A stretch of DNA of 64,000 bases, from NCBI RefSeq assembly GCF_000585335.1, contig NZ_KK073872.1, positions 2,781,283 to 2,845,282 of the forward strand, read 5' to 3'. This stretch comes from Cloacibacillus evryensis DSM 19522. GTDB lineage: Bacteria; Synergistota; Synergistia; Synergistales; Synergistaceae. The notes beneath the pieces were generated by a model. It had not been told where the DNA came from, did no database searches, and saw only the letters and a program-made list of their open reading frames with translations. How positions within the stretch are numbered: the stretch's first letter is position 1; the number at the start of each line of letters is the position of its first letter. Below, in pieces: positions 4,214-53,672 of the stretch. A program made the position numbers and the translations under genes.

Positions 4214-5710
4214 ATGCTTTCAAATCATCTGATAGAGGTAAAACGCTGGGTAATAAGGAGCATCGCCGGGGCGTATATACACAGCAGGGAGATACCCGGC
4301 GGCAGTTACGCACAGGACAGCGACTTCCGCCAGAGCGTGAAGAAGCTGCCCTTCGTGCATATTCCTCCGGGTTCCGCCGCAAGATACCGCTGCTGCGTCT
4401 ATAAAGAGCGCGCGATCGTCCGCCTGCGCGTCCTCGCCGGACTCGGCTTCAGCGTGGAGGCTGACGACGAAATGACCTCGCTGCTCGAATATGCCGACCG
4501 CGCGCTTAAGAGACACCAGATAGAGGGGCCGGCGCTGACGATCATCGACATCGCCTGCAAGGGCTGCGTCAACGCCCGCTATTATGTCACCGAGCTCTGC
4601 CAGGGCTGCCTCGCGCGCCCCTGCGAGAGCGTCTGCCCCTTTGGAGCCATCCACGTCGAGGACGGTCATTCAAGAATAGAAAAAACAAAATGCAAAAACT
4701 GCGGCCGCTGCAAAGAGGTCTGCCCCTATCACGCCATCGCCAAGATCGCCGTCCCCTGCGAAGAGAGCTGCCCGACAAACGCGATACAAAAGGATGAAAA
4801 CGGCGTCGCCTCCGTCGACCACGCGAAATGCATCAGCTGCGGCTGCTGCGTCGCCGCCTGCCCCTTCGGCGCCGTCCTTGAGCGCAGCCAGATCGTGGAC
4901 GTCGTGCGCGCGCTCGACAGCCGCAAACAGATATACGCGCTCGTCGCCCCAGCCATCGCCGGACAATTTGAAGCGAGCTTCGCCCAGCTCGTCACCGCGA
5001 TAAGGGAGCTCGGCTTCTCCGACGTGGTGGAAGTGGCGCTCGGAGCGGATAAGACAGCCGTGGACGAGGCGGAAGAGCTGCGCGAGCGCATGGCGAACAA
5101 GCGCCCCTTTATGACCACCTCCTGCTGTCCGGCTTACATCCAGGCGGCGCGCCGCCATATGCCGGAGCTTACGCCGCACATTTCGGACACCCCGACACCC
5201 ATGCACTTCACCGCCGAAATGATGAAGACGAAGAACCCCCGCAACATAAACGTATTCATCGGCCCCTGCGTCGCGAAGCGCAAGGAGGCGATGGAGGACT
5301 CCTGCGTCGACTACGTCATGACCTTTGAAGAGCTCTCGGCCCTATTCGAAGCGGCCGGGATAAACCCCTCCGCGTGCGAGGAGGCGGAGCTTAAAAAGAA
5401 CGCCTCCGCCCAGGGGCGCGGCTTCGCCATAAGCGGCGGCGTCGCCGCGGCGGTCAAACGCGCGCTGGGAGAGGAGGCCGAAATCCGCACCACCTGCATA
5501 AACGGCCTCAGCAAGGCCACGATGGCGCAATTGAAGGCCTACGCGAAAAACGGCGCGCCGTTCGACCTCATAGAGGTAATGACCTGCCCCGGAGGCTGCA
5601 TCAGCGGCGCCGGCGTCGCGATGCGCGACAAAAAGGCGAAGGACGGAGTGGAAAAATTCGTGCGTGAGAGCGAACCGCTGCGGGTCAATAACGACGGATG
5701 CGGCCAATAG
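4214..5710 (+). CDS. monomeric [FeFe] hydrogenase, group B-like
   Basis: 498 residues. Ferredoxin-like cysteine clusters occupy about residues 115-220 (CQGCLARPCESVCP, CKNCGRCKEVCP, CISCGCCVAACP). The H-cluster domain follows, with TSCCPAY (302-308), GPCVAKRKE (350-358) and TCPGGCISGAG (457-467). These deviate from the group A patterns (TSCCPGW, MPCxxK) in the way seen in group B hydrogenases of anaerobes. The ~110-residue amino-terminal region with a Cys-Cys pair is typical of that group. It should interconvert protons and H2 with ferredoxin in the cytoplasm. No diaphorase (HydB/C-like) or maturase genes are next to it. A GGGAGATGGGG ribosome site precedes the ATG. Physiological direction or a sensory role is unknown. 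Confidence 0.88.
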   Translation: MLSNHLIEVKRWVIRSIAGAYIHSREIPGGSYAQDSDFRQSVKKLPFVHIPPGSAARYRCCVYKERAIVRLRVLAGLGFSVEADDEMTSLLEYADRALKRHQIEGPALTIIDIACKGCVNARYYVTELCQGCLARPCESVCPFGAIHVEDGHSRIEKTKCKNCGRCKEVCPYHAIAKIAVPCEESCPTNAIQKDENGVASVDHAKCISCGCCVAACPFGAVLERSQIVDVVRALDSRKQIYALVAPAIAGQFEASFAQLVTAIRELGFSDVVEVALGADKTAVDEAEELRERMANKRPFMTTSCCPAYIQAARRHMPELTPHISDTPTPMHFTAEMMKTKNPRNINVFIGPCVAKRKEAMEDSCVDYVMTFEELSALFEAAGINPSACEEAELKKNASAQGRGFAISGGVAAAVKRALGEEAEIRTTCINGLSKATMAQLKAYAKNGAPFDLIEVMTCPGGCISGAGVAMRDKKAKDGVEKFVRESEPLRVNNDGCGQ

Positions 5711-5727
5711 CGACGACACACGATAAA

Positions 5728-5768
5728 GCCGGCGGAGGGAGCGTGTTTTCTGGACTCCCTCCGCTGGC
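5728..5768. other. strong hairpin after the hydrogenase gene
   Basis: A 14-base arm GCCGGCGGAGGGAG pairs with CTCCCTCCGCTGGC (one G-T pair) across a 13-base loop, 17 bases after the hydrogenase stop. No T run follows, so it may be a 3'-end stabiliser or a weak terminator. Confidence 0.6.
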
Positions 5769-5787
5769 ACGGATACGGACAGGCTCT

Positions 5788-5809
5788 GCCGGATAAATAT
5801 TTATCCGGC
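5788..5809. repeat. perfect 22-bp palindrome
   Basis: The half-site GCCGGATAAAT (5788-5798) is followed directly by its exact reverse complement. A spacer-free palindrome of this length in an intergenic region may be an operator or part of a terminator; no partner protein can be named. Confidence 0.6.
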
Positions 5810-5978
5810 CTCCGAATTTCCGCGCGCGACAAGAAAATTGATAAAGTTATACACTAAACCCCCGTCTGCATCGGGGCAAACTCATCAAACCTTTTAACGC
5901 GCCGGGCGGCGGCATGGGAGCGGCAGGAAACCATTCCTGCGTCCCAGCCCCGCCTTGATTTTCGCATCGAATTACCCC

Positions 5979-6006
5979 TTGACAAATACAAAGTTAGGAG
6001 TATCAT
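5979..6006 (+). promoter_or_regulatory. candidate promoter of the lys operon
   Basis: TTGACA (5979-5984), 16 bases, TATCAT (6001-6006). It would start transcription near 6013 and give a ~180-base AT-rich leader before lysW. Confidence 0.6.
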
Positions 6007-6021
6007 ACCTCCCCAGGATAA

Positions 6022-6153
6022 ATGAACTTTTTATTATTTTATCCATTCGAAATAGTTAAATATCGCGCTTTTTATAAACTTAAGTAATATAAAAAGAGAA
6101 TTAAGAGACACCTGCGATATAATTATTAGAAAATATTATAATAAAAAGTTCAT
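6022..6153 (+). repeat. 132-bp AT-rich leader bounded by 16-bp perfect inverted repeats
   Basis: ATGAACTTTTTATTAT (6022-6037) recurs as its exact reverse complement at 6138-6153. Inside lie two further stems: ATATCGC/GCGATAT (6060-6066 with 6114-6120) and CTTTTTATA/TATAAAAAG (6068-6076 with 6088-6096, loop containing CTTAAG). The nested arrangement starts about 10 bases after the predicted transcription start and ends 25 bases before the lysW ribosome site. It may be a structured regulatory leader or a small foldback (MITE-like) insertion; no target-site duplication is obvious. It does not resemble the lysine riboswitch. Confidence 0.6.
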
Positions 6154-6193
6154 AAAGTTAATTAAATATAATTTTAATGGAGGTATTTTTATT

Positions 6194-6361
6194 ATGACTG
6201 CTACTTGTATCGTATGTGAGGCAAACGTATCCGTTCCCCAGGATTGCTGCGAGGGAGAGCTTCTTATCTGCCCGGACTGCGGCACTGAACTTGAGGTGGT
6301 AGCGCTCGATCCGCTCACTGTGGAAGAGGCGCCGCAGGTGCAGGAAGACTGGGGCGAATAG
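6194..6361 (+). CDS. lysW: LysW amino-group carrier protein
   Basis: 55 residues. Four zinc-ligand cysteines lie at positions 5, 8, 26 and 29 (CIVC and CPDC), and the acidic tail ends in EDWGE, the invariant carboxy terminus whose terminal glutamate is joined to the substrate amino group. LysW protects alpha-aminoadipate (or glutamate) as a protein-bound intermediate through lysine (or arginine) synthesis. GGAGGT lies 9 bases before the ATG. It is the first gene of an operon lysW-X-Y-Z-J-K and is easily missed because of its size. Confidence 0.96.
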   Translation: MTATCIVCEANVSVPQDCCEGELLICPDCGTELEVVALDPLTVEEAPQVQEDWGE

Positions 6362-6364
6362 GTA

Positions 6365-7204
<840 letters not shown>

Positions 7205-7412
7205 TTTATGAGCGGCTGCGTCACGGCTTACGAATCAGCCATAAAGTTTGCGGATAAATGCAAGCGCGGAATAAAGCGGTTGCCCGATGGGTCGTGGATT
7301 TTTGCAGCGCCGATTTAAGTTTGTCGGCCTCACAGGCAAAATCACGGCTCGCATCCCGAAGGACGCGGGCCTTTTTCATGCTTAAATAAAATTTTTAGGG
7401 AGTGTGCAAGAA
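7205..7412 (+). other. non-coding gap inside the lys operon
   Basis: 208 bases between lysX and lysY without a credible gene. It carries a GGATTTTTGCAGCGCCGATT segment sharing nine bases (GCCGATTTA) with the repeats at 47698-47828 and 57642, and a weak GC-rich hairpin near 7350-7372 followed by TTTTT. Whether this is an internal attenuator is unclear. Confidence 0.4.
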
Positions 7413-8462
7413 ATGACAGAGAGGATTCCAGTAACTATATGGGGCGCTACGGGCTTCGCCGGCGCGGAGCTTCTGCGGATATTCGCCCGCCATCCGCATT
7501 TTGAGGTCATAGGGGCGGTCTCACGTTCAAAGGCCGGCACGTCGGTCGGCGCGGTCCATCCGCATCTGCGCCATGTATATAACGACCTTACCTTTATTTC
7601 GCCGGAGGACGCGGCTTCGCTCTCCGCCGCCGCGGCCTTCCTCGCGCTGCCGCACCGCGCCTCGGCGCAGGAGGCGATGCGCCGCCTTGATGCCGGCGAG
7701 CGCGTCGTAGACCTTTCGGCTGATTTCCGCCTGCGCAGCGCGGAGGAATATAAAAACTGGTACGGAGTCGATCATCCGGCGCCGGAGCTTCTCTCCGAGG
7801 CGGTCTACGGGCTGCCCGAGCTGCACCGCGCCGAGATGGCCTCCGCGCGCCTCGTCTCCGGCGTCGGCTGCAACGCGACCTCGGCGATCACAGCGCTGCT
7901 GCCGCTCGCGAGGGCGGGGCTGATCGAAGAGGCGCGCATCGAGTGCCGCGTCGGCTCCTCCGAGGCGGGAGCCAACGCCGACGAGGGCTCGGCGCACGCG
8001 ATGCGCAGCCGCGCGCTGCGCGTGGTCAACCCCTTCGTCCACCGCCACATGGCGGAGGTGGTGCAGGAGCTTTCTCTGGCGCAGAGCTCCTTCACGATGG
8101 GCGTCACCGCCGTCGAGCTGGTGCGCGGCATCCAGTGCCTCGCCCATGTGACGCTTAACCGCCCGGTGCGCGAGGCCGAGGTATGGAAGCTTTATCGCGC
8201 CGCATGGAACGGAGAACCATTCGTCTCCTTCACGCCCGCGAAGCCGGCGCACTTCCGCATCCCCGACCCGCGTTTCGTCGTCGGCAGCAACCGCGTGCTG
8301 ACCGGCTTTATGCTCGCGGAGGACGGACGCCGGATGATCGCCGCCTCGGCGATAGACAATCTCATGAAGGGCGCGGCGGGCTCCGCGGTGCAGTGCGCCA
8401 ACCTGATGTTCGGCCTGCCGGAGACGGAGGGGCTCGATATGATGCCCGTCTATCCCGCCTAA
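7413..8462 (+). CDS. lysY: LysW-aminoadipyl-6-phosphate / N-acetyl-glutamyl-phosphate reductase
   Basis: 349 residues from ATG 7413, which has AGGGAG at 7397-7402 with 10 bases spacing; an in-frame GTG at 7404 lies almost on top of that site and is less likely. NADPH-binding GATGFAGAEL at residues 10-19, catalytic Cys in SGVGCNATSAITALLP, and HRHMAEVVQEL follow the ArgC/LysY pattern. It reduces the LysW-bound acyl phosphate to the semialdehyde. Within this operon it is LysY rather than a free-standing ArgC. Confidence 0.92.
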   Translation: MTERIPVTIWGATGFAGAELLRIFARHPHFEVIGAVSRSKAGTSVGAVHPHLRHVYNDLTFISPEDAASLSAAAAFLALPHRASAQEAMRRLDAGERVVDLSADFRLRSAEEYKNWYGVDHPAPELLSEAVYGLPELHRAEMASARLVSGVGCNATSAITALLPLARAGLIEEARIECRVGSSEAGANADEGSAHAMRSRALRVVNPFVHRHMAEVVQELSLAQSSFTMGVTAVELVRGIQCLAHVTLNRPVREAEVWKLYRAAWNGEPFVSFTPAKPAHFRIPDPRFVVGSNRVLTGFMLAEDGRRMIAASAIDNLMKGAAGSAVQCANLMFGLPETEGLDMMPVYPA

Positions 8463-8480: not shown

Positions 8481-9290
8481 ATGATCGGAGTTGTAAAAAT
8501 CGGCGGAGCCTCTGGCAACAGGCTCGAGCCGCTCATAGATGAAGTAGCGGAGAGAAACCGCGCGGGCGAACGCTGGATCGTCGTCCACGGCGCAAGCGGC
8601 GTGATGAACGACCTCTGCGCCGAACGCGGGCTGGAGGTACGTATGGTTACGAGCCCCTCGGGCTACCGCAGCCGCTTCGTCGGCGAGAGGGAGCGCGAAC
8701 TCTTTCGCGAGGCGGCGCTCTCCTACGGCGCGCGTATCATTGAGATGCTCGCGGAACGCGGCGTGAAGGCCGTCCAGGCCGATCCGGAACAGGCGCCGTA
8801 CGCGGCGGCGAAGCGCAAGGATTTTCTGCGGGAGAGCGTGAACGGCCGCATGCGGATACTGCGCGGCAATTACAGCGGCACCGTGACGAAGGTCGAACCG
8901 TCGTCGCTTCTCGCGGCTCTCGACGGCGGGCTCGTGCCGGTCGTTCCGCCGCTCGCGCTCGACTCGGAGCTCGGCATTTCGCTGAACATCGACGGCGACC
9001 GCCTCGCGGCGCAGATCGCCGGAGCGGTGAGGGCCGACCTCCTGATTATTCTTTCAAACGTCCCCGGCCTTATGAAGGATATCGAAGACCCACGGTCGCT
9101 CATCACCAGGGGCAGCCTCGCGGGCTGGGACGTCATCGAGCACTACGCGCAGGGCAACATGAAACGCAAGGTCGTCGCCTGCAAAGAGGCGCTGGAGCTC
9201 TCTATCCCCAGCGTCTATCTTGCCGACGGCCGGGTGGAAAATCCGCTCGCAAACGCGATGGAGGGACATTCGACATGGCTGGTTCGTTAA
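8481..9290 (+). CDS. lysZ: LysW-aminoadipate kinase
   Basis: 269 residues of the amino acid kinase fold (ArgB relative). Seen: VVKIGGASGN at the start (phosphate-binding Lys), VHGASGVMND, SLNIDGDRLAAQIAGA, LSNVPGLM and the GNMKRKVVA lysine motif. It phosphorylates the delta-carboxyl of LysW-bound aminoadipate before LysY acts. GAAAGGAAG precedes the ATG. The last 16 bases overlap lysJ. Confidence 0.93.
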   Translation: MIGVVKIGGASGNRLEPLIDEVAERNRAGERWIVVHGASGVMNDLCAERGLEVRMVTSPSGYRSRFVGERERELFREAALSYGARIIEMLAERGVKAVQADPEQAPYAAAKRKDFLRESVNGRMRILRGNYSGTVTKVEPSSLLAALDGGLVPVVPPLALDSELGISLNIDGDRLAAQIAGAVRADLLIILSNVPGLMKDIEDPRSLITRGSLAGWDVIEHYAQGNMKRKVVACKEALELSIPSVYLADGRVENPLANAMEGHSTWLVR

Positions 9291-10432
9291 GCGGGCTCTA
9301 CGGCGGACGCGGCATCGCGCTCACGCACGGCGAGGGCGCCTGGGTCTGGGGCAGCGACGGACGCCGCTATATCGACTTTTTCAACGGACACGGGGCGGCG
9401 CTGTTCGGCCACGCAAACCCGGTGCTGACGGAGGCGCTGGCCGAGGCGGCGCGCGGCGTATGGAGCTGCGGCGCGGGCTACGAATCCCCCGCGCGCGAAG
9501 AACTCGGAGCCATCCTCGGCGGTGAGCTCGGCGACGGCAGGGTATTTCTCTGCAACAGCGGCACCGAGGCGATCGAAGGGGCGCTCAAGCTCGCGGCGGT
9601 GCTCGGCGGCAAACGCCGCGAGATCGCCGCCTCCCGCCGCGCCTTTCACGGCAGGAGCTGCGGCGCGCTCGGCCTCACCTTCAACCCAAAATACCGCGCG
9701 CCCTTCACCTCGCTGATCCCCGCGGCGAAGCATTACGCGCCCGAGGATATCCCCGCGAAGATCAGCAACGAGACTCTCGCCGTCTTCATCGAGCCGGTAC
9801 AGGGAGAGGGCGGCGTCTATCCCATTCCAGAAGAGGTGGGACGGGCCATCACCGAAAGCTGCCACGCGCACGGCGTGCTGCTGATCGCAGACGAGGTGCA
9901 GAGCGGCCTCGGCCGCTGCGGCTCCTTTTTCGCTTCGGCGGAAAGAGGGCTTGCGCCGGATATCATTTGCCTCGCGAAAGGGCTCGCTGGCGGCATGCCG
10001 GCGGGAGCCGTCGTCTGGCGCGGAGAACTCGGCGACTTCCCGCCGCACTCTCACGGTTCGACCTACGGCGGCAACGAACTTACAGCGCGCGTCTCGCTCG
10101 CGGCGCTCAAATACATAAAAGAAAACGGCCTCTGCGCCCACGCGGCGAAGACAGGCGCGTTTATAAGGGAAGAAATTTCACGGAGGTCCATTCCCCTCGT
10201 CGGCGACGTCCGCGGCGCTGGGCTGCTGATCGGCGTCGAGACGGAGATACCCTCGCAGGATATCGTCAAGGCGCTGCAGGAAAACGGCCTGCTCTCTCTC
10301 GCGGCCGGGCCGCGCGTCGTTCGTTTCCTGCCCTCCTTCGCCGTCACTGAAGAGATCGCGCGCGAGGCCGCGGACATATTTGAAAGAACGATGAACGATC
10401 TCGACGCACGGCGTAACGAGGGGGTGGCGTAG
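9275..10432 (+). CDS. lysJ: LysW-aminoadipate semialdehyde aminotransferase
   Basis: 385 residues, class III PLP aminotransferase. Seen: NSGTEAIEGALKLA (PLP phosphate), EPVQGEGGVYP, IADEVQSGLGR (Asp to the pyridine nitrogen) and CLAKGLAGGMPAGA (Schiff-base Lys). It transaminates the LysW-bound semialdehyde with glutamate to LysW-lysine, or LysW-ornithine in the arginine branch. It overlaps lysZ by 16 bases and shares one base with lysK. Confidence 0.94.
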   Translation: MAGSLSGLYGGRGIALTHGEGAWVWGSDGRRYIDFFNGHGAALFGHANPVLTEALAEAARGVWSCGAGYESPAREELGAILGGELGDGRVFLCNSGTEAIEGALKLAAVLGGKRREIAASRRAFHGRSCGALGLTFNPKYRAPFTSLIPAAKHYAPEDIPAKISNETLAVFIEPVQGEGGVYPIPEEVGRAITESCHAHGVLLIADEVQSGLGRCGSFFASAERGLAPDIICLAKGLAGGMPAGAVVWRGELGDFPPHSHGSTYGGNELTARVSLAALKYIKENGLCAHAAKTGAFIREEISRRSIPLVGDVRGAGLLIGVETEIPSQDIVKALQENGLLSLAAGPRVVRFLPSFAVTEEIAREAADIFERTMNDLDARRNEGVA

Positions 10433-11469
10433 TGCGTCTGCCTGAATCAGTCGGGCTTCTCGTCGACATCGTCGCCGTGCCCAGCCCCACCGGACACGAG
10501 GAGGACGCGGCGCGGATGCTCGCGGACCGCTTGCCCCGCTTCGGCTGGGAGACCTCCCATTTGGACGGCGCGGGTTCGGTGATCGCGACGCGCGGCAACG
10601 GCGACAAAGAGCTGGTGCTGCTCAGCCATATCGATACCGTCCCCGGCGGCCCCAAACTCTTCGTCAACGAGGAGCGGATAGAGGGGCGCGGCTCGGTCGA
10701 CGCCAAAAGCCCCTGCTGCGCCCTAGCTGTGGGCGGCGGAGCCGTCGAAGTTCCCCGCGACTGGCGGATAACCTTCGTCGCCGCCGTCGGCGAGGAGATA
10801 GATTCGCGCGGCGCGCGCTTCCGTATGCCGCTTCACGAGCCGGCGGCCCTCGTCGTCGGAGAGCCGCCCGGCAGCAACGGCGTCGCCCTCTCATATCGAG
10901 GGCGCATCCTCTTCTCATTCGTCGCGGAGGACAGCGGCGCGCACCGCTCCGGCAGCCCGGGCCCGATGTCAGACACCGTGCTAGCCGCCGCCTCGATGAT
11001 GCAGATAACGGAAAATATGGGCAAGGGTTATTCGATCGCGATCATGGAGATGGAGGGACACGAGGCGGGAAGACGCTCCGCCTCCATCACGATGGACCTG
11101 CGGACCCCCATCGGCGCGCAGCAGGAGGAGCTGGAACTGATGCTCAACGAGACCGCCGCCGCCTTCGGCGTCGGGTTGAATGTGATCGAGTACGTTCCTC
11201 CTCATGAGGTGCATAAATCGGACCCCGTGATACGCGCCTTCCGCACGGCGATACGCGACGTCACCGGCGAGCCGCCGCGCGTGCTCGCGAAACAGGGCAC
11301 CTGCGATTTCAACGTCCTCTCCACCTGGGGCTGCCCCATGGGCGCCTTCGGCCCCGGAGACTCCAAATACGACCACAGCTCAAACGAGCAGATCGAGATA
11401 AAGGAGTTCCTGCGCGGCATCGAGGTGGTAAAGGGCGCGCTGCCGAAGGTGATGGAGGCGATACGGTAA
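10432..11469 (+). CDS. lysK: LysW-lysine / LysW-ornithine hydrolase
   Basis: 345 residues, M20-type metallopeptidase. Seen: LLSHIDTVPGG (metal His and Asp), GRGSVDAKSPCCALA (bridging Asp), AAVGEEIDSRG (general-base Glu pair) and a late DHSSNEQIEI (metal His). It frees lysine or ornithine from LysW and regenerates the carrier, closing the pathway. GTG start overlaps the lysJ stop (TAGTG). Upstream enzymes making alpha-aminoadipate (homocitrate synthase and so on) are not in the window. Confidence 0.93.
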   Translation: MRLPESVGLLVDIVAVPSPTGHEEDAARMLADRLPRFGWETSHLDGAGSVIATRGNGDKELVLLSHIDTVPGGPKLFVNEERIEGRGSVDAKSPCCALAVGGGAVEVPRDWRITFVAAVGEEIDSRGARFRMPLHEPAALVVGEPPGSNGVALSYRGRILFSFVAEDSGAHRSGSPGPMSDTVLAAASMMQITENMGKGYSIAIMEMEGHEAGRRSASITMDLRTPIGAQQEELELMLNETAAAFGVGLNVIEYVPPHEVHKSDPVIRAFRTAIRDVTGEPPRVLAKQGTCDFNVLSTWGCPMGAFGPGDSKYDHSSNEQIEIKEFLRGIEVVKGALPKVMEAIR

Positions 11470-22050: not shown

Positions 22051-22062
22051 AAGACATTTATG

Positions 22063-22152
22063 CTATCTTCCTACGGCGGCATTACCCGCATCAGGTGTAA
22101 GGGTCGAAGTAAATAACTTCCTCTCAGCCTGCCGCGCAAGCTCCCCTGCTTT
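22063..22152 (-). promoter_or_regulatory. TPP riboswitch (THI element)
   Basis: Read on the minus strand it contains GGGGAGC, the invariant CTGAGAGGAAG, GACCCTTACACCTGAT and GGGTAATGCCGCCGTAGGAAG-like ending, the full set of conserved TPP aptamer blocks in the right order. It stands 75 bases upstream of thiC. Confidence 0.97.
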
Positions 22153-22160
22153 GTTGTTTA

Positions 22161-43240: not shown

Positions 43241-43612
43241 TATAGGGAGGGACAACGACTGCCGTAATTGATCTACCTTTGCCCACATAATATCTTATTT
43301 ACTATTAAAGAATAAATACTGTCGCCCCAATTATAAGTGACCGTATTATATTTTGTCCGCCATACAAATAGAGGCAAGAAAAGAGAGACAAGAGATAAAA
43401 ACTCTTGTCTCTCTTTTCTTCTATTAGGTATTTTTATTTTATCGACTTTATCAAGCGAGATTCTTAACGAATTAAGATTTTTAGGTAGTGCCAAGAGGGA
43501 CGTTTTTCCCTTAATCTCCAAGTTCTCCAAACCACAAAAATCCAGGTGTGCGTCGAAACTTCTCAAAGCAGATTTTCTCCGTTCGGCGGGATGGCGCTCT
43601 TTAGGGAAACAA
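43241..43612. other. AT-richer non-coding stretch next to an IS scar
   Basis: No credible gene; an open frame on the minus strand (43273-43566) has no family features. It contains a perfect 19-bp stem (43376-43394 with 43402-43420, arm AAGAAAAGAGAGACAAGAG, 7-base loop), purine-only but for one base and so unlike neighbouring hairpins. Base use suggests acquired DNA. Confidence 0.5.
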
Positions 43613-46341: not shown

Positions 46342-47691
46342 ATGATCTTCGACTTCATACGCATAGAAAACGGCAGCGATACGGCGCTCTGGCGGCAGAT
46401 ATACGAACAGTTCGCCGCCGCGGTGGACGGCGGGAGGATCGCGCCGCTTACGAGGCTCCCTTCCATACGCGAACTCGCGGCGGGACTCTCCGTCAGCCGG
46501 TCGCCGGTCGAAAACGCATACGAGCGGCTCCACCTCGACGGATACATCGTAAGCCGCCCGAAGAGCGGCTGCTTCACCGCGCCGCGCAGGAGCGGAGGCG
46601 GCGCGCGGCGCGGCGTCAAGGCCGCAAGCATCACTGAAGCGCGGTATGACCTCAGCTCCGGCAGGATAGACGCAAAAAACACGGACATCTCCGCGTGGCG
46701 GCGCTGCCTGCGCTCCGCGCTCAAACGCGAGGATGAGATCACCTCGCGCGGCGATCCCTGCGGCGAACCGGAGCTGCGCCGCCAGCTCGCCGCCTACGCC
46801 TACCGCGCTCGCGGCGTGAAATGCGGCGCCGGTGAAATCATCACCGCCTCCGGCACCCAGCAGTTACTCTCGCTGCTCTGCCGCGCGCTTGGCGGCGGAG
46901 GGCGCGCGGTGCTTGAGAGCCCCGGCTTTGAACAGGGAGAACGGGTGCTGCGCGATTACGGCTGGGAGGTCTCCGTCGTTCCGGAATCGCCTGAGACAGT
47001 CTCGCGGCTCTACGATGCCGACATCTTCGTGGAAATAGCTTCAAAGCGCCCGCTGCGCACTCTCGCGCAGAGGACCCGGCGCAGAGGCGCGCTCGCGGAA
47101 TGGGCGCGCGAGAACGGCCGCCTTATCGTCGAAGACGACTATAACGGCGAGCTGCGCTACCTTGCGCGCCCGATCCCGGCGATGCAGCCGCTCGCGCCGG
47201 AAAACGTCGTCTACATCGGCAGCTTCTCGCAGCTGCTGCTGCCCTCGGTGCGCGTCGCCTACATGGCGCTTCCGGCGCGGCTCGCGGAGAGCTGCGCGGC
47301 GGCGGCCGGCTTCTACGATCCGACATCTAGTAAAATCGAGCAGCTCGCGCTGGCCGAATACATCCGCGAGGGACATCTCGAACGCCACCTGCGGCGCTGC
47401 CGAAAGACATACCTGCGCAAAAGCCGCCTGCTCTCCGAGGCGCTGGGCTCCGCTTTCGGCGCCGCGTTTGAATGGCGGCTGCTCGAAACATCGACGTCAT
47501 TCACGCTTCCCCTCTGCGGCAAGGCGGAAAAAATGCGGCAGGCGGCGCTCATGGAGGGAGTAAAAGTCGACGCCGGGAGAGACAATATCCTGCTCTCCTT
47601 CGCCGGCATCCCCGAGGAAGACATCAACGGCGCGGCGGCGGCCCTAAAACGCGCGTGGGAGCGCGTCATCAGGGGGGACGATAAAATGTAA
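46342..47691 (+). CDS. pdxR: MocR/PdxR-type GntR regulator with aminotransferase-like domain
   Basis: 449 residues: GntR winged HTH (~15-85; LPSIRELAAGLSVSRSPVENAYERL) and a fold-type I aminotransferase-like domain (~115-445; ASGTQQLLSLLCRAL, ESPGFEQGERVL, VEDDYNGELRY). By position (divergent from pdxST) it should be PdxR, controlling PLP synthesis by sensing PLP. Unusually, the PLP lysine expected in GTFSKxLxPxLR is Gln 297 here (GSFSQLLLPSVR), so a Schiff base cannot form at that place. GAGGAG before the ATG. Confidence 0.9.
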   Translation: MIFDFIRIENGSDTALWRQIYEQFAAAVDGGRIAPLTRLPSIRELAAGLSVSRSPVENAYERLHLDGYIVSRPKSGCFTAPRRSGGGARRGVKAASITEARYDLSSGRIDAKNTDISAWRRCLRSALKREDEITSRGDPCGEPELRRQLAAYAYRARGVKCGAGEIITASGTQQLLSLLCRALGGGGRAVLESPGFEQGERVLRDYGWEVSVVPESPETVSRLYDADIFVEIASKRPLRTLAQRTRRRGALAEWARENGRLIVEDDYNGELRYLARPIPAMQPLAPENVVYIGSFSQLLLPSVRVAYMALPARLAESCAAAAGFYDPTSSKIEQLALAEYIREGHLERHLRRCRKTYLRKSRLLSEALGSAFGAAFEWRLLETSTSFTLPLCGKAEKMRQAALMEGVKVDAGRDNILLSFAGIPEEDINGAAAALKRAWERVIRGDDKM

Positions 47692-47697
47692 ATCGGC

Positions 47698-47828
47698 GTA
47701 AATCGGCGTTTAGAAGTGCGAGTTGCTAAATAAAATGGGGGCTCCGATACCGGAGCCGTATTTGTATACGGCGAGGATTCGGAGCCCCCGTTTTATGACG
47801 CAAATCGCGCTTATAAACGCCGATTTAC
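47698..47828. repeat. 131-bp foldback element after pdxR
   Basis: GTAAATCGGCGTTT (47698-47711) returns as AAACGCCGATTTAC (47815-47828). The interior also pairs: TAAAATGGGGGCTCCGA with TCGGAGCCCCCGTTTTA and CCGTAT with ATACGG at the tip. Nearly the whole element is one long imperfect hairpin, followed by further ACCGATTT repeats. The central GGGGGCTCCGA stem with TTTTAT can end transcription. AAACGCCGATTTAC occurs again at 57642-57655. Confidence 0.75.
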
Positions 47829-47910
47829 CGATTTACCGATTTGCCTCGCCTTACAGGGTGATGTATAATCTTGATGCAAAGTAGAATAATTTTATTTTGG
47901 AGGCAGATAA

Positions 47911-48717: not shown

Positions 48718-48997
48718 ATCCAAACAGTGATATCGACAGATACTCCGAGTATGCTAAAAAAAATCATACATAAGTGAAAGAAACGATACCCTGAATAACT
48801 CATCGATGGTAAATTTAGCCGTAAATACAGTGTTTTTAGCTTAAAACCAGATTTTAAGCAAAAATGGGACAAATAACATTAAAACGAGATAAATAACGCA
48901 AATTCCTTCATTTATCGTTTAATTGACCATATATTAAAACCATGCTAGAATGAACGAAAGATTTAAGCTAATAATGTTTGATTATGAACACACAAAA
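48718..48997 (+). other. AT-rich region holding the first surface-protein promoter
   Basis: No gene. A weak stem GCTTAAAA/TTTTAAGC lies at 48839-48859. From about 48880 on, the sequence resembles the region before the second module (CGAGATAAATAACGC block, GTTTAATTGACC or GTTAATTGACC), so upstream promoter DNA is part of the duplication. Confidence 0.55.
48923..48951 (+). promoter_or_regulatory. promoter of surface-protein module 1
   Basis: TTGACC (48923-48928), 17 bases, TAGAAT (48946-48951). The same elements with the same spacing stand before module 2. Confidence 0.7.
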
Positions 48998-49079
48998 AAG
49001 TAAAAGGCAAGCCCGTTGAAAAACGGAGCACGCAAAACTATAGGGTCTTACCCCGTCAGGGATGACAGCCAGTTACCTT
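48998..49079 (+). promoter_or_regulatory. cyclic di-GMP-I (GEMM) riboswitch, copy 1
   Basis: The aptamer shows the GEMM order: GGCAAGCC, a CCGTT-GAAA-AACGG stem with GNRA tetraloop, CACGCAAA, a second helix with GGGTCT, GATGACAGCC and GTTACC at the end. The terminator follows at 49097. Identified by eye from the consensus; ligand class (c-di-GMP or 3',3'-cGAMP) not settled. Confidence 0.88.
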
Positions 49080-49096
49080 CAAAGGTCCCATCAGGA

Positions 49097-53527: not shown

Positions 53528-53573
53528 GTATAAAAGATTTTAACAGGCAGTATTTGATTATGAACACACAAAA

Positions 53574-53655
53574 AAGTAAAAGGCAAGCCCGTTGAAAGAC
53601 GGAGCACGCAAAACTATAGGGTCTTACCCCGTCAGGGATGACAGCCAGTTACCTT
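53574..53655 (+). promoter_or_regulatory. cyclic di-GMP-I (GEMM) riboswitch, copy 2
   Basis: Same aptamer as copy 1, with one substitution in the tetraloop stem (AACGG to GACGG, turning a pair into a wobble). All conserved blocks are intact. Confidence 0.88.
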
Positions 53656-53672
53656 CAAAGGTCCCATCAGGA

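Follow-up and report, generated by a model that had tools for sequence, protein, structure and literature searches.

What lies between the promoter and the first gene of a LysW-type operon in the 64,000-nucleotide stretch of DNA analysed here (the window), where a long, AU-rich inverted repeat separates the two? The promoter is of the sigma-70 type (TTGACA-16-TATCAT, 5979–6006, 11 of 12 consensus matches; features lie on the + strand unless stated otherwise), and its position predicts a transcription start near 6013. The operon has the order lysW-lysX-argC/lysY-lysZ-lysJ-lysK. Its first gene, lysW (6194–6361), encodes the carrier protein (TIGR01206, 60.5 bits against a cut-off of 53.2) and is preceded by the Shine-Dalgarno (SD) sequence GGAGGT (6179–6184). 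The following genes are a lysX-like ATP-grasp ligase (6365–7204; TIGR00768 above cut-off, LysX_arch with 267 bits below its cut-off of 275.6), an argC/lysY-like gene (7404–8462), a lysZ-like kinase (8481–9290), an argD/lysJ-like gene (9275–10432) and a lysK-like gene (10432–11469), where several names denote the best NCBIfam match at a score below the cut-off of that family. The leader has an overall GC content of about 20%. In 100-base windows it amounts to 0.19–0.25 between 6001 and 6200, compared to 0.47–0.73 elsewhere in the region 5001–7000.

The original prediction described a perfect 16-bp inverted repeat spanning 132 bp ahead of lysW, in a leader that begins about 10 bases before the repeat and is made up almost wholly of three nested AU-rich stems. 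The coordinates bear this out. The arms (6022–6042 and 6133–6153) are 21 nt long and 90% complementary; they contain a perfect 16-bp core (6022–6037 with 6138–6153, 132 bp from end to end), and the predicted transcription start lies about 9 nt 5' of it. The predicted stems are P1, formed by the two core arms, P2 (6046–6058 with 6120–6131) and P3 (6061–6067 with 6113–6119). The register given for P3 is that of the window's own leader; genus g4 uses another one. For the 172-nt stretch we calculated a folding energy of -34.2 kcal/mol, compared to a mean of -20.2 for shuffled sequences (z = -4.08, none of 200 shuffles as good). The structured core of the leader (6014–6153) reached -32.3 on the + strand (z = -6.04, again none of 200 as good) and -26.9 on the minus strand (z = -4.60). 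All seven leaders of this type described below (groups A and B) fold better than the average of their shuffles, with z between -2.6 and -6.0; between 0 and 4 of the 200 shuffles do as well in each case.

Inverted-repeat ends and a low GC content are also what a MITE-like insertion between promoter and gene would bring, and the original prediction had offered this as one explanation. A search of the window's own genome (one contig of 3,488,464 bases) with 6013–6193, however, found the leader only once. The identical search with 47688–47838, which contains the other foldback of the window, gave 66 BLAST match rows; some of these count one place twice, once per strand, owing to the palindromic nature of the element. 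The second foldback (47698–47828, 131 bp, 50-nt arms with 86% complementarity) corresponds by its length to the 131-bp foldback of the original prediction and belongs to a MITE-like family. Despite their almost equal length, the two foldbacks are thus different things, one being single-copy and the other multicopy. As the position of the leader is moreover identical in seven genomes, an origin as a MITE-like insertion is refuted for practical purposes. A further inverted repeat of the window, AAGAAAAGAGAGACAAGAG at 43376–43420, has perfect arms of 19 bp around a loop of 7 nt.

We searched 185 Synergistota genomes for lysW, which was present in 73 of them at E ≤ 1e-4, and read the upstream regions of 47; 23 others were left out and three (L114–L116) stayed unclassified as lysW was not located. 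A leader like that of the window was found in seven of the 47 regions. Five of these form group A (L002, the window's own, with L003, L004, L007 and L013) and two form group B (L006 and L022), so that the sample comprises seven sequences from four genera. The promoter layout ahead of the leader recurs in the relatives. Seven further regions, all from genus g5 (L008–L011 and L014–L016, with L015 and L016 identical to each other), contain an AU-rich leader of the same place, size and promoter. The region of L005 is truncated at the edge of its contig, 13 others showed a T-box by eye and 19 had neither.

A covariance model of 6014–6153 built from the five group A leaders (R1) matched seven of the 185 genomes at E ≤ 1, once in each and always upstream of lysW, in a search under strict filters that may lose weak matches. 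Two of these matches are independent of the building set, G167 with E = 0.0022 and G168 with E = 0.064. The scores of the two B rows are only 33 and 26 bits, compared to 21 bits for one A leader read on its reverse strand, which is nearly palindromic. With the filters off, a second model made from groups A and B (R2) failed to recover any of the six g5 leaders given to it (best E = 3.2), and for four of these six the fold does not stand out from that of shuffles (z = -1.2 to +0.2). The g5 counterpart is too diverged to confirm homology with the window-type leader and was excluded from all pair counts. In a tree of 30 LysX rows, groups A and B, g5, the cut locus L005 and L012, which carries an unrelated short leader, form one clade of 16 rows (97/89). 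Its sister consists of five f1 genomes with short leaders and six T-box rows fall outside, in a tree that was midpoint-rooted for drawing only and that does not include G122, a T-box genome from the window's family. Among the matches found, the leader is restricted to one subclade of the window's family and stands only ahead of lysW.

The original prediction proposed comparing lysW upstream regions across Synergistota for covariation, and this comparison turned out in favor of the fold. An RNAalifold consensus of the five group A leaders contains P1, P2 and P3 with 38 pairs. Nine of these are changed on both sides and still paired, against a mean of 3.9 in shuffled alignments (0 of 500 as high), and sliding the partner by one to three columns leaves one to four. 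With all seven leaders the count rises to 13 of 38 pairs (shuffle mean 6.1, 0 of 500 as high; four to six with a slid partner), in an alignment that was fitted to the structure via R1 and is hence biased towards it. The tool itself warns that shuffles can be exceeded by related sequences. P1 arms pair with their own partners at a mean of -19.0 kcal/mol in group A and -19.2 kcal/mol in group B, compared to -9.8 kcal/mol for arms combined across the groups. In g5 only L009 shows a strong P1-type pairing (-18.7). L008 and L014 lie in between, with 37 and 28 of 500 shuffles doing as well, and L010, L011 and L015 stay at the level of shuffles (203, 160 and 171 of 500). As judged by this comparison of sequences, compensatory changes have kept the structure of the leader.

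Concerning the strand, the consensus structure of the five leaders contains 24 G-U and 3 A-C combinations among 190 cells. We withdrew this excess as proof of a sense-strand RNA, because fold prediction on a strand itself favors G-U there. When the alignment was reverse-complemented before folding, the counts became 6 G-U and 11 A-C, which means that the choice of strand for the prediction accounts for most of the ratio. From the window's P1, which is strictly Watson-Crick, the other four group A leaders show 4 G-U and 2 A-C departures, and the other six leaders 5 and 2. The consensus fold amounts to -13.99 on the + strand and to -12.11 on the - strand. From the direction of the promoter, the position of the leader and the better fold on + than on -, we infer that it acts as a sense-strand RNA.

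The 5' part of the leader (6014–6061) is strongly conserved. Between the five members of group A, which represent three genera, these first 48 nt are 90–98% identical, compared to 56–85% for the 3' side of P1 and P2 and 33–64% for the middle of the leader (79% for the pair L007/L013). Four-fold degenerate sites of lysX are 38–57% identical in nine of ten genome pairs and 74% identical for L007/L013. The 5' arm thus surpasses its 3' partner in conservation, and pairing by itself leaves this unexplained. A strand shared by two structures would show such conservation, and a competing local hairpin, P0 (6016–6044; 6016–6022 with 6038–6044), could provide the second one. No compensatory change was found in P0, and its outermost pair is lost in both B leaders. 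In an equilibrium model the 5' arm of the window is engaged in long-range pairing with 0.88 and in local pairing with about 0; for L013 the values are 0.47 and 0.27. P0 is hardly populated at equilibrium except in L013 and some g5 leaders.

Conservation beyond the needs of pairing would equally be expected if the block were a DNA operator, with the fold being secondary. The operator could consist of the palindromic element GGATAAA-N15-TTTATCC directly after the promoter or of the P1 arms as inverted copies. We consider this unlikely, although less so than initially, because the outcome of the strand analysis leaves a cause at the DNA level possible. In the five-leader count, however, six of the nine pairs with changes on both sides belong to P3 rather than to the region of the 5' block. 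A pair of ArgR operators was rejected, as the Arg_repressor domain PF01316 was not found in the window's own genome in a search whose control detected it in nine of 14 known genomes.

Another role for the fold would be that of a constitutive 5' stem which protects the end of the mRNA from decay and senses nothing. The 5' stem of the ompA mRNA is an example of such protection. In favor of it, the first base of P1 and the predicted transcription start are about 9 nt apart, and the middle of the rod drifts outside the L007/L013 pair. A mere stabilizer, however, does not need a 5' block that is 90–98% identical, and we regard a purely protective stem as rather improbable.

The leader has a constant place ahead of lysW in seven of seven matches, is present once in its genome and shows compensatory changes. 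We therefore read it as a clade-specific cis-regulatory RNA of the lysW operon mRNA, which is the probable interpretation. Our confidence was slightly higher before P0 proved to be hardly populated and the G-U test failed. The leader probably acts after initiation, on the translation of lysW or on the stability of the message, and not via an intrinsic terminator. No terminator-like site was found on the + strand of 5700–6400 in a scan that requires G-C pairs and that an AU-only terminator would escape; all three sites detected are on the - strand. Control by transcription termination is unsupported for this reason.

A possible route of such control involves the apical part of the rod. In L003, L004, L007 and L013 the 10-nt segment directly after a conserved URAAC is the strongest pairing partner of the leader's own SD sequence (none of 131–133 segments pairs better). 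Over the first 80 aligned group A positions this site, which had been picked by eye before its pairing was scored, has the best mean SD pairing (-8.4; next separate site -4.8). The corresponding segment of the window (6076–6087) is only weakly complementary, with 29 of 127 segments pairing better. The B leaders possess no SD-complementary segment at that site (57 of 131 and 63 of 129 segments better), and in the six g5 leaders between 0 and 34 segments pair better with the SD (the site is the best in L015, and 4 to 34 others are better in the remaining five). At this site, no preference for a leader's own SD over the SDs of other genomes was seen.

Based on these data the following mechanism can be envisaged. 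The 5' leader of the lysW mRNA would fold as one rod of P1, P2 and P3 with internal loops in between. The conserved 5' block would alternate between closing P1 with the 3' arm and forming the local hairpin P0, and this choice would govern the access of the apical segment after URAAC to the SD of lysW. The balance between P1 and P0 could be set by an arginine/ornithine-pathway or lysine-pathway metabolite, by a protein or by nothing at all. We consider this the most likely route of control only with reservation: once a tentative possibility, it has become an unlikely one, because the equilibrium model hardly populates P0.

Two other modes of control were tried and rejected. Sequestration of the start codon by pairing of 6138–6147 with 6186–6195 was dropped, as L004 and L013 do not keep this pairing (by eye). 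As to a leader peptide, group A shares an ATG site (5 of 5), but the open reading frames range from 9 to 32 codons. Both B leaders lose that ATG while its pair stays (G-C to A-U), and have another ATG 7 nt upstream with frames of 10 and 40 codons. In Thermus, lysine genes are controlled by leader-peptide attenuation. This is likewise a leader control of LysW-pathway genes, but the window leader differs from it in having no conserved leader peptide. In lysW upstream regions from other families (L024, L124 and L126) we noticed by eye a CCCTCC or CCCCCC directly after the -10 box that is complementary to the GGAGG of lysW and, if transcribed, would form an SD hairpin. In the window, ATACCTCC lies at 6005–6012 and GGAGGTAT at 6179–6186.

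At gathering scores, Rfam 15 gave no match in the leader of the window or in those of six relatives (L003, L004, L006, L007, L009, L013), and with E up to 10 only two matches at chance level appeared in the window leader (E = 0.93 and 6). The original prediction had stated that the lysine riboswitch does not match. Indeed, RF00168 has no covariance-model match in the window or its genome and was rejected as the identity of the leader. Like the leader, this riboswitch is found ahead of amino-acid operons, but its aptamer folds as a multi-helix structure, whereas the leader is a single rod. It occurs in five of 52 genomes of the window's family, all five without a lysW match.

The T-box (RF00230) was also rejected as the identity of the leader, which has neither an Rfam match nor the sequence GGGTGGTACC. 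In other Synergistota, T-boxes are likewise leader RNAs in front of lysW; the window leader differs by the missing T-box sequence and by the absence of a terminator in our scan. Many other Synergistota have a Lys-type T-box or a short leader ahead of lysW. The T-boxes recognized by eye are found at 13 loci (L112, L117, L121, L122, L125, L129, L131, L025 and L027–L031), with AAA or AAG, for lysine, as the specifier (by eye). All seven loci tested match the Rfam T-box with E values from 1.3e-16 to 3.8e-5, but below the gathering score, and are therefore missed by default Rfam searches.

A further question is which amino acid the operon makes. DAP decarboxylase (lysA) scores above its cut-off in the window's own genome and in G134, G125, G163 and G167 (A or B leaders), as well as in G130 and G127 (g5 counterparts) and G144 (short leader). 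In the T-box genomes it is below cut-off (G018, G024, G122), without a match (G009, G179) or barely above cut-off (G173, 299.2 versus 297.9). Argininosuccinate synthase is above cut-off in all 14 genomes tested. ArgJ had no match in any of the 14, in a search that found it in ten of 14 known genomes. Homocitrate synthase (TIGR02146) reached its cut-off in none of the 14, which is a weak result since only two of 14 control genomes did so. Its best scores are at most 84 bits in the window's own genome, G134, G125, G163 and G167; two g5 genomes have one match each at 277–278 bits, and six T-box genomes have matches at 260–297 bits, two of them with further ones at 226–277 bits. The long-framed matches were taken as putative leuA. 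Since lysA and argininosuccinate synthase are present and ArgJ is absent in the leader-bearing genomes tested, the LysW operon may make ornithine/arginine rather than lysine in this clade. The original idea of an undescribed regulatory RNA for LysW-based synthesis is supported at the level of sequence by the compensatory changes and the location ahead of lysW only, whereas a tie to lysine is doubtful.

The leader would fill in one clade the regulatory slot that a T-box holds in the outgroups, where lysine-type T-boxes precede lysW. Together with the lysine riboswitches of the family, none of which coincides with a lysW match, this is consistent with a metabolite riboswitch of a new class or a tRNA-sensing leader that took the place of the Lys T-box seen in other Synergistota. 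Amino-acid riboswitches, however, often serve several genes, whereas R1 under strict filters located the RNA at no gene other than lysW. Moreover, few unpaired positions are conserved and the middle of the leader is hypervariable, so that we judge a new sensing class to be somewhat unlikely. The more elaborate scenario, in which such a class arose in the window's family and took over the LysW operon when the pathway turned from making lysine to making ornithine/arginine, with loss of the ancestral lysine T-box, is a speculative and improbable one. If the leader is regulatory, as we prefer to read it, it would offer, inside a single phylum, a small and testable example of an operon at which another regulatory RNA has taken over from a T-box, and would open a way into the control of LysW-borne amino-acid synthesis.

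In open-licence papers on LysW operons, RNAs of Synergistota and Cloacibacillus, T-boxes and Thermus attenuation, covered mostly through titles and openings of abstracts, no description of the RNA was found. Another RNA element, the guanidine-IV variant Gd4v, shares the phylum of the leader, as Cloacibacillus is a genus of the same phylum as the window. The Gd4v riboswitch tested from Cloacibacillus sp. was a 95-nt construct from the 5'-UTR of an aminotransferase gene with a terminator and, unlike the window leader, has no link to lysW in the accessible portion of that report (PMC9788692). The name 'lysW' in PMC5584792 refers, in the portion available, to a transporter gene and not to the LysW carrier. 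Elsewhere in the window, Rfam reports two c-di-GMP-I riboswitches (48996–49080 and 53572–53656, + strand, 4.6 kb apart) and a TPP riboswitch (22051–22157, - strand). A match to the TwoAYGGAY RNA (RF01731) was observed in another lysW-bearing locus (L120, 419–574).
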